Below are positions 21,061 to 30,407 of a DNA stretch of 31,742 nt, piece after piece. Location: positions 1 to 31,742 of IMG/VR virus record IMGVR_UViG_3300034101_002949; one strand, given 5' to 3'. The translations under genes were made by a program, and so were the position numbers. The notes beneath the pieces are model-generated. The model saw only the letters and a list, made by a program, of their open reading frames with translations. It ran no database searches and was not told the origin of the DNA. Each line of letters opens with the position of its first letter. The stretch's first letter is position 1. Origin of the DNA: a virus.

Positions 21061-22704
21061 ATGATTTTACGACCAAGGCAGGCGCAGTTCGTTGACGCCT
21101 GCATCGACGCACTCGGCAAGTGCGGCAACACTTTAGGGATTGCGCCAACAGGCGCAGGTAAGACGGTCATGGGCAGCGCAATCCTTGCGCCGTTCGTGAA
21201 GAAAGCACCGGTACTCGTCATTCAACACCGCGACGAGCTTGTCACTCAAAACAAGGAGACCTTCAAGCGGTACAACGTCGGCGCGAAGGTGGACGTATTC
21301 AACGCGGAACGCAAGGCGTGGTCGCCAGGGGCGACCTTCGCCATGGTACAGACGCTGTGCAGGCCAGCGAACTTGGCAACGATGCCGAGTGGGATGTCGG
21401 CGCTGTTCTGTGATGAGTGCCATCACATACGGGCCGACACCTACATGAACATTGTGCAGGCGTTCCGCGAACGCTCGCCAGATGGGGTCATTCTCGGGCT
21501 TACCGCGACCCCCGAGCGCGGTGACAAGCAGGCGCTCACGGCGGTGTTCAACAACGTCGCCGACAAAATCACCGTGGGCGAACTCATCGCTACTGGGAAC
21601 CTCGTGCCGCCGCGTGCGTTCCGCATGGACATCGGCCTCAATGACCAACTCCAGAGCGTGCAGAAGACCGGTGCAGAGTTCGACATGGGCGAGGTGGAAG
21701 CCATCATGGACAAGCGAGCGGTTCACTCGGAGATTCTGCGGCATTGGCGCGAGAAGGCGTCCGACCGCTCGACCGTGGTGTTCTGCTCGACCATCCAACA
21801 CGCCCAGCACTTGGCTGAGGCGTTCCGCGAAGAAGGCATCTCGGCGGAGGCGGTACACTCCGAGATGTCCGACGACGACAACGCAACGGTTCTGAGGCGC
21901 TTCGACCAAGGCAAAATCAAGGTGCTGCTCAACGTGATGAAGCTGACGGAGGGCTGGGACTGCCAGCGTGTGGGGTGCGTTGTGTTGGTGCGTCCGTGCA
22001 GTCAGAAGTCGACCATGATTCAGATGATCGGGCGAGGGCTGAGACCGTGCATCGACGCCAAACGCTACCCTGGGGTGATTAAGAGCGACTGCATCATCTT
22101 GGACTTTGGCGCCTCACTGCTCACGCACGGCGACATCGACGCAGGAGACCGCCTGTTCGTGCGCCAGAGCGAGACCGGTGAAGCACCGATGAAGAAGTGC
22201 CCAGAATGCGGTATTCAGGTGCCGGCTGCGGTCAGCAGCTGCCCCGTGTGCGGCTACGTGTTTCCGGTTAGGGTCAACGGCATCGAGACAATCGAGTCCT
22301 TCGAGATGTCGGAGATGCAAATCATCGAGATGTCGCCGTTCCGGTGGGAGTCGATGTACGGGGACGCCGTGCGCATGGCGAACGCGCTCACTGCGTGGGG
22401 CGCGGTCATCAGGCTTGGTGAGGTGTACAACGCCATTGGCGGCGTCACCGGAGGCGCGGTCACCATCATCACGCGCACCAACTCCAAGGAGCTTGCGCTT
22501 GCTCAGGCTGACGACTTCCTTCGTAGCAACGGTGATAGAACGAACTCCCGAAAGACACGCAGTTGGATTAAGCTGCCACCAACGGACTCGCAACTGAAGC
22601 ATATGGCTGATGTTCCGATGTTTGGGATGTCGCGCTACCGCGCAAGCTGCGTGCTCACGTGGAAGTTCAACGAGGCACGCATAAAAAAAGCGATTCTTGG
22701 CTAA
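21061..22704 (+). CDS. SF2 DNA helicase with C-terminal zinc ribbon
   Basis: 547 residues from ATG 21061, with AAAGG upstream; a GTG at 21001 would translate through hairpins and is rejected. Motif I is APTGAGKT (28-35), motif II DECH (118-121), motif III LTAT (147-150), motif V TEGWD (296-300), motif VI QMIGRGLR (321-328). After the helicase core, CPEC (380-383) and CPVC (394-397) form a zinc ribbon, and about 150 residues of unassigned domain follow. This is the RecG/UvsW/SSL2-like SF2 layout used by phages for replication restart and branch migration. It lies with annealing and resolvase genes, which supports recombination-dependent replication. Confidence 0.88.
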   Translation: MILRPRQAQFVDACIDALGKCGNTLGIAPTGAGKTVMGSAILAPFVKKAPVLVIQHRDELVTQNKETFKRYNVGAKVDVFNAERKAWSPGATFAMVQTLCRPANLATMPSGMSALFCDECHHIRADTYMNIVQAFRERSPDGVILGLTATPERGDKQALTAVFNNVADKITVGELIATGNLVPPRAFRMDIGLNDQLQSVQKTGAEFDMGEVEAIMDKRAVHSEILRHWREKASDRSTVVFCSTIQHAQHLAEAFREEGISAEAVHSEMSDDDNATVLRRFDQGKIKVLLNVMKLTEGWDCQRVGCVVLVRPCSQKSTMIQMIGRGLRPCIDAKRYPGVIKSDCIILDFGASLLTHGDIDAGDRLFVRQSETGEAPMKKCPECGIQVPAAVSSCPVCGYVFPVRVNGIETIESFEMSEMQIIEMSPFRWESMYGDAVRMANALTAWGAVIRLGEVYNAIGGVTGGAVTIITRTNSKELALAQADDFLRSNGDRTNSRKTRSWIKLPPTDSQLKHMADVPMFGMSRYRASCVLTWKFNEARIKKAILG

Positions 22705-26603: not shown

Positions 26604-29156
26604 ATGCAGCCATTGACAGACCGTCGTGGCTTGGTGGATTTACACCAAGCCCAAGAGCACCTTCTTCTCATTTTTGGCGAGAGGGACTGGAGAGAGAACG
26701 AGTTCGTGTGCGTTCGAGGCATCGGCGAAAAAGGCACCGAGCAGGAGGGTGTCTTTCGGGAGGACATCTTCGTTGAGCCAGCCAAAGAGGGCTTTGGCCC
26801 AGTATTGTCTGCCGCCGAGCGGTGGGCACAGTACAACGTGGCGACGTTCGTCGTCCCAGGCATCTTGTCCGAGCGCAAGGCAACAAGCGCCAACGTCGCA
26901 CGGATGCGCTCGCTGGTGGCAGACCTCGACAACGGAAATACCGACGAGAAGATGCGGGCCATCACCGAGCAGCTTGGCGAGCCTTCGCTGGTGGTTCTGA
27001 GCGGTGGAACAACCGAGGAGGGAACTCCAAAGAGGCACGTCTGGTACCAGCTCGATGGAGAGATTCCAGCCGAGCAGGCGATCCGTATGCGGGACGCGCT
27101 TGCCAAGGTAAGCGGCGGGGACTCAGCGATGGGCCTTGGGGTTGACTCAAACCCGTATGGCCGCGCTCACCAACCAATCCGCTTGGCCGGAAGCGTTCAC
27201 GCGAAGAAGGGCACGCCGGTTCAGACCGCCATCGAATGGAGAAGCGAGACCGTGCAGAACGCTGCCGCGTTCACCGAGCGTCTTCGCTCGCTATTGCCAC
27301 AGGGCTCTATTGCGCCGGAGGCGGGGCTCTTCGGGGCCAATAGCACCAACGCGCTCCCGAAGGAGCCAGCCCATCAGCGCGACGTGTACGAGGGCGCTGC
27401 CAACGGGGAAACACGCTGGGACGCGTTTAACAGCGTTGCAGGGGCGAACCTGGGGCTTGTGCGGCGCGGGATGATAACTCTTGAGGAAGCCCGTGAGCAG
27501 ACCCGCGGGTGGATGCTTCAGCGGATGCACCCAGCGTGGACGGACGCGCGCTTCGCCTCGGAGTGGCAGGGGCTTGTCAACGCAGACACGCGCCGAAACG
27601 GGAAGGTTGAGACAGCACCGGCAACAGCGCAAGCGACGGCCCGCGCTCTTCCGGCGTCCACGCCGGCCGAGTCATGGTTTGAGGCATGGCAGGCGCACCG
27701 GTGGATTAAGTGGCCAAAGCCAGAGCACACTTACTTGGTTGAGGCGCTGGTCGTCAAAGGCGAGCCGCATCTCTTCATCGCCGAGGGCGGCGCAGGCAAG
27801 ACCGGTCTCATCGCTGACTTGGCTCTCAAGGTCGCAGCCCAACCAGAGTACGCCGGGGACTTGGACTGGTGCGGGCAGCGCATCACCAACGGTGGAACCG
27901 CGGTGCTCCTGCTATGCGAGGACAGCCAGACCGAGATGCACCGGCGGATCCTTGAGATTGACCATGGCGGGCTAATCACAAAGGCAGGCCGGAGGCTTGT
28001 GGTTATACCGCTCTCAGCAGTTGGCGGGGCATTCCCGCTTGTGGAGCGCGATCCCAAGAGCGGCTCACCGATAGCCTCGCCGAAATGGGAGGCCATCATC
28101 ACTGAGCTTAAGCGCATCCCAGACCTCTGCCTTGTGGCAATCGACACCTTCAACGCGGTCTCCCACGGGGACGAGAACAACGCTCTGGCGGTGGCCGAAA
28201 TGATGCGCGAGGCAGGGCGCGTGTGCGGGGAGCTCAAGGCAGCTCTCATGATTACACACCACATCCGAAAGCCCGGCAACGAGCCAATCCGAACGCTCAA
28301 GGACATGAAGAACTCCATCCGCGGGAGCAGCGCCATCCCGTCGTACTTCCGAATCAACTTGGGGTTCTGGCACGCGACCGATTACGAGCGCCGCATGAAG
28401 GGGATGGCTCTAGCGCCGCGGGTAGACTCTTGTTACCGGTTCGGGGTGCTCAAGGCCAACATCAGTGGGCTCATGCGCGGCGAGCGCACACTGCTTCGCG
28501 ACGGCAACGGCCTGCTCAAGGACGTTACGAAGCTGGACGTGTACAGCGCCATCAACGTGACTGAGAGGCTTGCATGGCTTGTTCTGGCGGTGCGGGAGGC
28601 GGCTGGTAACCTGCATCCGTACACGCTGGGGAACAAGAACGCAGCCAACGGGCTTTACAAGCGCCGCTCTGAACTTCCACCGGTGTTGCGCGCAGTTGGC
28701 GCAAGCGAGTTTGGGCACCTCATCGAGGAGGGGCTCCAGAAGGAGCTCATCGTCTCGTGCGCGGTCAAGGGCAGTAAGGCGAAGAGCTACCTCGATGTTC
28801 CTGGGGGGCTTTTGGCTTCGGATGAGACCGGTGCGGCTATCCAAGCGGGGGCGTATGCGTCTGTTCCCGACTGGAACGAGTACGCCTTCGACGCCGAGAC
28901 CGGCACCTGCGTCGGCAAGGCCGGTCAAGCGGCATGGGCTACCTTTTCATCCAAGGGGGCGCAGGCTTATGGTCAAGATCAGATGGCTGAACCACCGGAT
29001 GAAGAGTTGGATGAGGAGTTGGATGAGGAGTTGGATGAGCCACCGCATGAGCCAGAGGCACCGCCAGCATTGCCTGCAATGCGGTCTCGATTCGCTCAAG
29101 GCGAGCGGATTGGTCTGCCGAGAGCCGCTCGACCATCTTCTCCAGATGACGAATAG
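26604..29156 (+). CDS. Fused primase (PrimPol/RepB-like) and RepA-like helicase
   Basis: 850 residues. The N-terminal part has D-x-D (D107, D109 in VADLDNGN), a later KRHVWYQL with H145, and DSNPYGRAHQPIRLAGS, the three-part layout of RepB/PrimPol-type primases. The C-terminal ATPase has Walker A EGGAGKT (394-400), LLLCEDSQTEMHRR (436-449), Walker B LCLVAIDT (508-515) and MITHHIRKPG (549-558), as in RepA and AAA_25 hexameric helicases. The tail after about 790 is acidic with three D-E-x-L-D type repeats. Its last 218 bases are antisense to a leftward gene. The leader CCCAAACAAA has no SD. It is the main replication initiator candidate. Confidence 0.85.
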   Translation: MQPLTDRRGLVDLHQAQEHLLLIFGERDWRENEFVCVRGIGEKGTEQEGVFREDIFVEPAKEGFGPVLSAAERWAQYNVATFVVPGILSERKATSANVARMRSLVADLDNGNTDEKMRAITEQLGEPSLVVLSGGTTEEGTPKRHVWYQLDGEIPAEQAIRMRDALAKVSGGDSAMGLGVDSNPYGRAHQPIRLAGSVHAKKGTPVQTAIEWRSETVQNAAAFTERLRSLLPQGSIAPEAGLFGANSTNALPKEPAHQRDVYEGAANGETRWDAFNSVAGANLGLVRRGMITLEEAREQTRGWMLQRMHPAWTDARFASEWQGLVNADTRRNGKVETAPATAQATARALPASTPAESWFEAWQAHRWIKWPKPEHTYLVEALVVKGEPHLFIAEGGAGKTGLIADLALKVAAQPEYAGDLDWCGQRITNGGTAVLLLCEDSQTEMHRRILEIDHGGLITKAGRRLVVIPLSAVGGAFPLVERDPKSGSPIASPKWEAIITELKRIPDLCLVAIDTFNAVSHGDENNALAVAEMMREAGRVCGELKAALMITHHIRKPGNEPIRTLKDMKNSIRGSSAIPSYFRINLGFWHATDYERRMKGMALAPRVDSCYRFGVLKANISGLMRGERTLLRDGNGLLKDVTKLDVYSAINVTERLAWLVLAVREAAGNLHPYTLGNKNAANGLYKRRSELPPVLRAVGASEFGHLIEEGLQKELIVSCAVKGSKAKSYLDVPGGLLASDETGAAIQAGAYASVPDWNEYAFDAETGTCVGKAGQAAWATFSSKGAQAYGQDQMAEPPDEELDEELDEELDEPPHEPEAPPALPAMRSRFAQGERIGLPRAARPSSPDDE

Positions 29157-29307
29157 TCTCATCCCGACTCGCCAACGTCTTTTGAACGGCTGTGTTCGCC
29201 TCGAGCGCAGCCTTCAAATCCGCCTTCATATGGTCAGCTTCAGTGGTGGTTTCAGCGGCCTTCGCACGCTTTTTTGCACGCCATTCACGGTAGTATTCTG
29301 CTCTCAT
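28939..29307 (-). CDS. Leftward coiled-coil protein antisense to the primase-helicase 3' end (122 aa)
   Basis: On the minus strand, ATG at 29307-29305 gives MRAEYYREWRAKKRAKAAET, a common opening of small phage DNA-associated proteins, then a coiled coil (DETIRHLEKMVERLSADQSA), a His-Pro-Thr repeat (HPTPHPTPHPT) and the tail KPAPPWMKR. It looks more protein-like than the + strand frame in the overlap. It shares 218 bases with the primase-helicase gene. The first 149 bases of the gene, beyond the primase stop, have no other coding use. The tail resembles the P-x-W-L-K ends of other recombination proteins. Function unknown. Confidence 0.6.
   Translation of the reverse strand: MRAEYYREWRAKKRAKAAETTTEADHMKADLKAALEANTAVQKTLASRDETIRHLEKMVERLSADQSARLERIETALQAMLAVPLAHAVAHPTPHPTPHPTLHPVVQPSDLDHKPAPPWMKR
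28998..29033 (+). repeat. Three tandem 12-bp repeats in the antisense overlap
   Basis: GATGAAGAGTTG (28998-29009) is followed by two exact GATGAGGAGTTG units (29010-29021, 29022-29033) and a partial one. On the + strand they give an acidic D-E-E-L repeat at the primase end; on the minus strand they give a His-Pro-Thr-Pro repeat. Unit length is a multiple of three, so repeat number can change without breaking either frame. Confidence 0.85.
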
Positions 29308-29369
29308 TGTAAGTTGCTGTTTTTTAGTTGGTTGTTACTGTTGCGCAAAACGCGCAGATTCATGTTTGC

Positions 29370-29555
29370 AAAGTTCGCAAAGTTTGTGAAGCGTTTTTTA
29401 CAGAGTATTTTGCGCGAGATGTGCGCACTGTTGCGCGAGAAAATCAAAAGCCCAAAAAACAGCCCAAAAAACAGCTTAAAAACGACCCTTGTAAGTCGTT
29501 CATGTTCAACGGGGCATGGCTTGCACAACAATCGTGCAAGAAAGTTCGCAAAGTT
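29370..29555. repeat. 15-bp direct repeat AAAGTTCGCAAAGTT
   Basis: Exact copies lie at 29370-29384 and 29541-29555; the span given joins them. Each contains two AAGTT half-units separated by CGCA. Between them, a second direct repeat TTGCGCGAGA occurs at 29410-29419 and 29431-29440, 21 bases apart, which is two helical turns. Such spacing suits protein binding on one face of DNA. Confidence 0.75.
29449..29484. repeat. Tandem A-tract repeat AGCCCAAAAAAC
   Basis: Two exact 12-bp units (29449-29460 and 29461-29472) are followed by a diverged third (AGCTTAAAAACG). A6 tracts spaced 12 bp apart, near the helical repeat, should bend DNA. Bent, AT-rich DNA is common beside phage and plasmid origins. 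Confidence 0.7.
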
Positions 29556-29612
29556 CACAAGCATTGCACCATGCCATTCTACAGAGATTTTGCACCACTT
29601 TTGCACGACACT

Positions 29613-29628
29613 TTGCGCAATTGCGCAA
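29613..29628. repeat. Perfect 16-bp palindrome TTGCGCAATTGCGCAA
   Basis: Two abutting TTGCGCAA units, each itself a palindrome, make a 16-bp palindrome. One more isolated TTGCGCAA lies at 29341-29348. Upstream, TTTTGCAC occurs twice (in 29588-29606), so the site closes a cluster of related half-sites. Confidence 0.8.
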
Positions 29629-29735
29629 CAGATTTTTTTTCGCGTTGAAAAAAACAGCAAAAAAGGACGCTACGTAAGTGCCTGAAAACCGTATGATTTG
29701 CGAAAGAAAACCGATGTTTGAGGACATGAGCCCTT

Positions 29736-29858
29736 ATATAGAGAGTAGCGTACTCATCGCTTACGCTCTTCCTACTATCCCCTCTCTCTTCTCTCAGTCG
29801 ACCGCGTTGCTGCCTGAGAGGAGAGGGGATACTGCTTCGCAGGATACTTCCTCTATAT
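29736..29858 (+). ncRNA. Candidate multi-branched structured element
   Basis: Outer stem P1: ATATAGAG (29736-29743) with CTCTATAT (29851-29858). Inside are P2, AGCGTA (29747-29752) with TACGCT (29762-29767); P3, TATCCCCTCTC (29776-29786) with GAGAGGGGATA (29821-29831), extended by CTCTCAG (29791-29797) with CTGAGAG (29814-29820) after a four-base bulge; and P4, CTGC-TTC-GCAG (29832-29842), stacked directly on P3. Together they make a four-way junction. T8 follows at 29877-29884. No coding frame explains it. It may be an RNA or a DNA secondary structure at an origin; no promoter was identified. Confidence 0.45.
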
Positions 29859-29928: not shown

Positions 29929-29940
29929 ATTGTATACAAT
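29929..29940. promoter_or_regulatory. Operator-like palindrome ATTGTATACAAT before RusA
   Basis: A perfect 12-bp palindrome ends 14 bases before the RusA ATG. It contains TATACA and TACAAT, which could serve as a -10 element, but no -35 match at the right distance was found. A dimeric repressor site overlapping a promoter is the simplest reading. Confidence 0.5.
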
Positions 29941-29954
29941 CCCGATAGACTTTT

Positions 29955-30407
29955 ATGACCTTCACTTTCTTCGTTTCCGGTACGCCTCGTCCGCAGCCAA
30001 GACCGCGCTTTGTGCGTGGGAGAGCGGTGTCCACCTTGGATGCGGGCTCCAGTGCGTGGAAGGCGGCTTTGCGTGCGTGCGCGGGCCATGTTTTGCAGCG
30101 GGCGGGGAAGACATCGGAGTCTCTTGGGCTGCGTGAGGCGATTTCGATGGAGTTGACGTTTAGCTTCTCGACCGGTGAGGAAGACCGGTTTGGGAAGCCG
30201 CACACGCACAAGCCGGATGCGGACAACTTGGCGAAGCTAGTGATGGACGCGCTGGTGGATGGCGGTATGTGGGTGGGGGATGACAGCCGAGTGGCGGACT
30301 TGACGGTGAGGAAGCGGTGGTGCGCAGCTGGTGAAGAGGGCGTGAGCGTGAGCGTGTACGTTGACGCACCGGTGCAGGAGCAGGCAGCGCCGGATTGGTT
30401 GGGGTGA
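29955..30407 (+). CDS. rusA: RusA-type Holliday junction resolvase
   Basis: 150 residues against about 120 for E. coli RusA. The N-terminal GTPRPQPRPRFVRGR and the catalytic block KPDADNLAKLVMDALVDGGM, then WVGDDSRVADL, match the family; D88, D90 and the Asp pair at 109-110 are the acidic residues that bind magnesium, as in RusA KPD-DNL-K...DAL...W-DD. It resolves four-way junctions left by recombination before packaging. The C-terminal extension ends APDWLG, similar to the P-x-W-L-K tails of the SSB-like protein and nuclease. No SD is seen upstream. Confidence 0.9.
   Translation: MTFTFFVSGTPRPQPRPRFVRGRAVSTLDAGSSAWKAALRACAGHVLQRAGKTSESLGLREAISMELTFSFSTGEEDRFGKPHTHKPDADNLAKLVMDALVDGGMWVGDDSRVADLTVRKRWCAAGEEGVSVSVYVDAPVQEQAAPDWLG

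Follow-up and report, generated by a model that had tools for sequence, protein, structure and literature searches.

A 123-base element at positions 29736-29858 of the window, the 31.7-kb stretch (31,742 nucleotides) of a P22-like podovirus analysed here, is probably a structural part of the phage replication origin, where it would be read as folded single-stranded DNA. This reading draws on the position of the element beside a predicted primase-helicase gene, the conservation of its shape, the loops of its bottom strand, the near absence of wobble pairs, and the precedents of RepB', pRN1 and N4. Against it stand a primase domain recognised from its predicted fold, the iteron count in the window, the weakness of the closing stem P1, a GTG motif that is not conserved, and a group of more distant relatives (clade D) in which our models find no match.

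The first-pass annotation had described the element as an 8-bp closing stem with three hairpins, P4 abutting P3, and this geometry proved exact to the base. Both strands can be folded into the four helices, as computed for the plus and the minus strand, and the long P3 is interrupted on its 5' side by a 4-nt bulge, TCTT (29787-29790). The loop side of P2 carries GCTTACGC, which on the bottom strand reads GC-GTAA-GC (29759-29766). The element is present in a single copy in the whole record and lies in the replication module, between the replication gene (26604-29156) and rusA (29955-30407), in a gap of roughly 650-800 bp and about 580 bp from the stop codon of the replication gene. Its parts are the following:

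29736-29858, bottom strand (presumed functional from the fold, the conservation, the pairing-borne homology and the bottom-strand loop motifs): four-helix fold-back element
29736-29743, no strand assigned: 5' arm of P1, ATATAGAG, pairing with 29851-29858 over 8 bp
29851-29858, no strand assigned: 3' arm of P1, CTCTATAT, partner of 29736-29743
29747-29767, no strand assigned: P2 hairpin, AGCGTA/TACGCT, with arms 29747-29752 and 29762-29767 (6 bp)
29776-29831, no strand assigned: P3 hairpin of 18 bp, made of 11 bp (29776-29786 with 29821-29831) and 7 bp (29791-29797 with 29814-29820)
29832-29842, bottom strand: P4 hairpin, with arms 29832-29835 and 29839-29842; the bottom strand reads CTGCGAAGCAG and contains the DNA mini-hairpin GCGAAGC (29834-29840)

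The left side of the window encodes scaffold, coat, Ad3, Hc3, ejection and tail proteins, and the right side a Sak4-like annealing protein, a helicase, a Cas4-type exonuclease, the primase/helicase, RusA, a methyltransferase and a NinG-like protein. The genes on the two sides of the element are:

26604-29156, top strand: replication protein (Rep), with a predicted AEP primase fold (residues 9-228) fused to a RepA-like hexameric helicase (residues 381-647)
29955-30407, top strand: RusA-like Holliday-junction resolvase, the next downstream gene

The structure of Rep was predicted from an alignment of 28 sequences, with a mean pLDDT of 67 and values of 85-90 for the N-terminal 230 residues. Residues 9-228 matched the cyanophage S-2L PrimPol (6zp9; Z 20.7, 2.4 Å over 184 residues) and the RSF1010 primase RepB' solved with initiator DNA (3h25; Z 15.8, 3.3 Å over 184 residues). 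Residues 381-647 resembled RSF1010 RepA most (Z 19.3), closely followed by other hexameric helicases; the helicase part matched RepA- or DnaB-type folds (1olo, 1g8y) and also Pfam AAA_25 at 7e-31. As the predicted fold matches RepB' at the N-terminus and RepA in residues 381-647, the replication protein appears to combine RepB' and RepA in a single polypeptide. Its acidic C-terminal tail is encoded in part by a short tandem repeat, GAGTTGGATGAG (29010-29045).

Among the distant relatives, the identity of Rep to that of the window was 71% in L062 and about 50% in clade C (L071-L081, L104-L106). The gene order rep - element - rusA is common to the window clade, L062 and clade C. A 122-aa open reading frame on the minus strand (28939-29307) runs antisense across the 3'-terminal ~220 nt of the replication gene; it is conserved at 54-99% in the window clade and 32% in L062 and is absent in clade C, and both frames of the overlap seem to be used.

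About twenty IMG/VR contigs carry the element at the same place. In a comparison of the window with 14 close relatives, identity was 93-100% over positions 29721-29840, 52-67% over 29421-29660, which lies in the same gap, and 67-97% over the coding region of rusA; no other stretch of this intergenic region is as well conserved among these phages. The differences include changes in loops. In P3, L019 has G-C in place of A-T, a compensatory change, and one pair of L007 is an A-C mismatch.

In L062 and clade C, the element was found at the syntenic place with other stems and the same design, that is, a weak closing stem, P2, a bulged P3 and P4. The bulge of P3 is on the 5' side, at the same place and 4-5 nt long in all clades (TCTT in the window, TTCT in L062, TATT or TACT in clade C). 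P1 covaries, being CATAGG/CCTATG in L062, ATATGG/CCATAT in L072 and AATAG/CTATT in L105, and is weak in clade C. A covariance model (R2) was built from eight window-clade variants only; its shortened calibration makes the E-values rough. All of its matches above noise were at the syntenic place: L062 had an E-value of 3e-20, seven loci of clade C had values between 5e-7 and 1.3e-4, and L105 had 0.011. The next match was noise (7.7). A sequence-only model (R3), made from the same alignment without base pairs, found L062 alone and no clade-C locus. Thus, the distant homology is carried by pairing, and covariation among homologues, the absence of which the first-pass annotation had named as a reason to discard the fold, came out positive. 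The reverse model built from clade C (R1) gave weak matches in the window clade (L003 at 0.021, L062 at 0.11, L007 and L017 at 0.4-0.6) and reported none in the window record itself, so that the cross-clade claim rests mainly on R2. When the clade-C consensus was folded with RNAalifold, the structure of the minus strand was in part a different one. At the level of aligned sequences, the comparison shows that the fold is under selection and that its shape has long been retained in a constant position on the 3' side of the replication gene, with most of its base pairs changed.

Six more distant Rep-relative control loci (L082, L083, L093, L121, L131 and L122) gave no match with R2. The phages of clade D have a similar Rep, yet their elements, if any, were not matched by the models. 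Separately, we observed in these more distant AEP-RepA phages hairpin clusters with compensatory differences, 230-420 bp 3' of the Rep match; the one in L095 is a closing stem with three hairpins and is a candidate equivalent of the window element. The clusters are at:

L082, position 8551: hairpin cluster
L083, position 8762: hairpin cluster
L094, position 3956: hairpin cluster
L095, position 1933: hairpin cluster

The folding energy of the element as RNA was -46.7 kcal/mol on the plus strand and -49.3 kcal/mol on the minus strand (z = -3.9 and -4.5, respectively), and in the comparison with shuffled controls that had been proposed for it, 0 of 200 dinucleotide shuffles folded as well on either strand. 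With DNA parameters, the element had a z of -4.1 and surpassed all shuffles; the minimum-energy structure contained the hairpins without P1. Five elements of distant relatives gave RNA z values of -3.7 to -4.9. Energy alone does not single out the element in the window, as a cruder DNA scan with cheaper shuffles gave it -2.7 and gave a coding stretch at 21329 -4.1. It is the comparative evidence, in the sequences at hand, rather than energy that decides the reality of the element.

The element had been said to have no coding explanation, and this view was borne out. The sole open frame (ATG at 29727) is broken in close relatives, where it ends after 30-73 aa (indels within hairpin loops), and among distant relatives every frame of L105 and L072 contains stops. 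A search of Rfam gave no match for the element at gathering score and a permissive search no credible weak one, the best sub-threshold match being far below gathering scores; the only match at gathering score was a tRNA elsewhere in L131. ARAGORN found no tRNA in the element. With BLAST, the intergenic region had no match in phages and the element none in plasmids, and a scan of genome contigs with the Rep alignment, made as a host look-up, returned no relative. The GC skew across the window had no turning point at the element.

Whether the fold is one of DNA or of RNA, and on which strand, can be approached through its base pairs and loops. We counted base pairs in 16 sequences with the arms set by hand and bulged bases left out, a procedure that favours Watson-Crick pairs, equally for G-T and A-C. 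Of the base-pair cells, which are not independent since the sequences are related, 583/586 were Watson-Crick; the top strand had no G-T, two A-C and one other mismatch. An A-C on the top strand is a G-T or G-U when read on the bottom strand, and these two events are too few alone for a strand call. RNA families normally hold several per cent of wobble pairs. The loops are biased to one strand: GC-GNA-GC or GC-GNNA-GC occurred on the bottom strand in all 23 distinct elements, in one to three copies, and on the top strand in none of the 23. The bottom-strand motifs are GCGAAGC in P4 and GCGTAAGC in the loop of P2 or P3, with the exceptions of L074, L078 and L079, which have no GN(N)A loop in P4, and L104, which has one copy in total. 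In six representatives, the motif count on the bottom strand was reached in at most 0.45% of 2000 shuffles. DNA mini-hairpins with a loop of the form GNA or GNNA and two or more G-C pairs are extraordinarily stable (PMC4686876), and the loop variants GTTA and GTCA obey this DNA rule and break the GNRA rule of RNA. Moreover, the DNA folding energy of the bottom strand was lower than that of the top strand in 14 of 15 sequences. The scarcity of wobble pairs, the one-strand loops and the lower energy of the bottom strand strongly suggest folded DNA of that strand; the case is short of proof because a bottom-sense RNA, copied from the top strand, would share the bias in loops and in energy.

The region around the element looks like an origin. 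Its features are:

29720-29733, top strand: conserved flank GAGGACATGAGCCC, with the counterpart GAGGACACGAG in L062 and much of clade C
29665-29688, top strand: conserved block GGACGCTACGTAAGTGCCTGAAAA, which corresponds to TAAGTnnTTGAAAA of L062, clade C and the rhizobial prophages
29341-29626, no strand assigned: repeat-rich region with TTGCGCAA-type repeats, possible iterons
29400-29410, top strand: ACAGAGTA motif, present in this region in every clade; the window has another copy, ACAGAG, at 29581

The TAAGTnnTTGAAAA block, which in the window reads TAAGTGCCTGAAAA and is at 29675, is some 45-65 bp ahead of the element in the window and L062 and nearer to it in clade C. The repeats differ in type and strength: TGCGCAA is present in six copies in the repeat region of the window, which is not above the shuffled maximum; L062 has repeats of the type GGTCGCGCAAAG; and in clade C AGGACAC is present in 6-11 copies against a shuffled mean of 2-3, clearly above the shuffled maximum, with many copies of GAGGACACG in both orientations around the CAACAGAGTAAA motif. 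In L105 (6406 and 6531) and L106, (A)ACAGAGTA forms an inverted pair between GAGGACACG repeats, which could be an unwinding or initiator site. A GTG start motif like that of RepB' and ORF904 is not conserved next to the element: on the bottom strand, the GAGGACACGAG flank carries it in L062 and clade C, the window has ATG instead, and L105 has neither. On the side of rusA, a 12-bp palindrome, ATTGTATACAAT (29929-29940), just 5' of the gene, is kept in all close relatives and may be an operator or promoter element.

Several known systems resemble this arrangement in part. RepB' recognises the single-stranded DNA hairpins ssiA and ssiB and starts the primer 3' of the hairpin (PMC4434180, PMC4234260). 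The window phage shares with RSF1010 (IncQ) a predicted RepB'-type AEP primase and a RepA-type hexameric helicase in the same replicon, and hairpins in a repeat-bearing non-coding region, the recognition of which as single-stranded DNA is here a proposal. It differs in that its primase and helicase are fused. In addition, RSF1010 has one ssi site per strand, each a lone hairpin within 40 nt that has a conserved 5' tail of 6 nt and a GTG start a few nt 3' of the hairpin, whereas the window has one element of four helices, with loop motifs on one strand and GTG not conserved; another sequence could serve the other strand. The archaeal plasmid pRN1 needs for its replication a stem-loop of 100 nt on the 3' side of its primase-helicase gene; this stem-loop is a putative origin, and its shape is conserved but its sequence is not. 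Phage BIP-1 has a similar stem-loop 3' of its replication gene (PMC4234260). The likeness to these lies in a fold-back of about 100 nt directly 3' of an AEP primase-helicase gene and in the conservation of shape over sequence, but pRN1 and BIP-1 combine an SF3 helicase with one large stem-loop and lack iterons, in contrast to the RepA-type helicase, four helices and repeats of the window.

The promoter hairpins of phage N4 extrude under supercoiling and need a loop G, an A and a C:G closing pair on one strand (PMC4496689). Both would have GNA loops with a C:G closing pair, restricted to one strand, and both would extrude from supercoiled DNA, but the N4 promoters are of 5-7 bp and serve the virion RNA polymerase, and no such enzyme was seen among the ORFs of the window. 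Prophages of the Rhizobium phage RHph_Y3_1 type have iterons, the TTAAGnnnTTGAAAA motif and fold-back stems directly 3' of the primase-helicase gene. These rhizobial RepA-helicase prophages share only the RepA-like half, with a different iteron and a primase part that by a weak match is Toprim-like instead of AEP, and have one fold-back with an inner hairpin, in which no GN(N)A loops were noted. In their own right, they (L121:5171-5476; L124-L134, L136 and L142) have an iteron-rich origin-like region 3' of the primase/helicase gene, in which two TTAAGnnnTTGAAAA motifs accompany an iteron fold-back with a covarying inner hairpin. By analogy, the window element may work like an ssi site or the pRN1 stem-loop, yet it fits neither class: we did not file it as an ssi site because it lacks the GTG start and the one-site-per-strand arrangement of RSF1010, nor as a pRN1-type element because the helicase is not SF3.

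If the element acts as part of an origin, the origin would be opened by binding to the repeats or by negative supercoiling, and the bottom strand would then fold into hairpins, to which the GNA/GNNA loops would give unusual stability. The fused primase-helicase of the phage could recognise the folded single strand and load there. The primer would begin within 29661-29735, the conserved flank that lies on the 3' side of these hairpins in the bottom strand, and a host or other polymerase would extend it rightwards.

The first-pass annotation had proposed that the element might be a phage small RNA, serve in packaging, or be extruded as a structure at an origin. The origin structure gained from the location 3' of the predicted primase-helicase gene in a repeat-rich non-coding region, from the mini-hairpin loops on one strand and from the near lack of wobble, while the other two lost ground. 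A non-coding RNA folding as a four-way junction, be it a regulatory RNA, a rusA leader or a processed sRNA, would agree with the strong fold on both strands and in relatives, and conserved structure with compensatory changes is the classical evidence for RNA; the closure of P1 is also predicted by RNA and not by DNA parameters. However, the element belongs to no Rfam family, a crude scan, the scope of which was sigma-70-like promoters and not other promoter types, found no promoter-like site, the top strand has no G-U, A-C (G-U on the bottom strand) occupies just 2 of the 586 cells, and the loop variants violate GNRA and keep GNNA. We therefore consider an RNA unlikely, and less likely than folded DNA. 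Packaging is made unlikely by the position in the replication module, although the terminase genes are outside the window.

Other readings are less probable still. RusA cuts four-way junctions, and an extruded DNA cruciform could be a target or autoregulatory site of the neighbouring RusA; the element stands directly before rusA in the window clade, L062 and clade C, and clade D has neither an adjacent rusA nor a model match. This is improbable, as a resolvase reads the shape of the junction and needs neither one-sided loop motifs nor a conserved bulge, cutting would harm the phage, and the adjacency could be inherited gene order. A transcription terminator or a stabiliser of the mRNA end of the replication operon would suit a place after the replication gene, with a T8 run about 15 nt past P1 in the window. 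Yet no simple hairpin adjoins this T-run, clade C has an A-run instead, the element is far beyond the rep stop and was not called by a pattern scan, and its bulge, loops and flank are conserved beyond the needs of a terminator, which makes such a role very improbable. We rate just as low an N4-like hairpin promoter or another binding site for single-stranded DNA hairpins, such as a packaging or partition signal: one-strand GNA loops with C:G closure are what the N4 virion RNA polymerase requires of its promoters (PMC4496689), but the ORFs of the window (the largest of 850 aa; the record is incomplete) include no giant N4-type RNA polymerase, and the element is far larger than an N4 promoter.

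Returning to the origin reading, we tentatively suggest a class of phage origins in which a multi-helix fold-back DNA with GNA/GNNA loops on one strand serves as the address for a fused RepB'-RepA primase-helicase, its sequence being free and its versions lineage-specific. Most replication origins are recognised by sequence, and a strand-specific DNA fold conserved in shape beside the phage's own primase-helicase would differ from them. One protein and one 150-nt DNA would make a small and concrete test system. The analysis also indicates that comparative genomics can tell a DNA-level fold from RNA, by the lack of wobble pairs, the loop rules of DNA and the restriction to one strand. If true, the proposal would link plasmid ssi sites, pRN1-type stem-loops and the supercoil-extruded hairpins of N4 to tailed phages.
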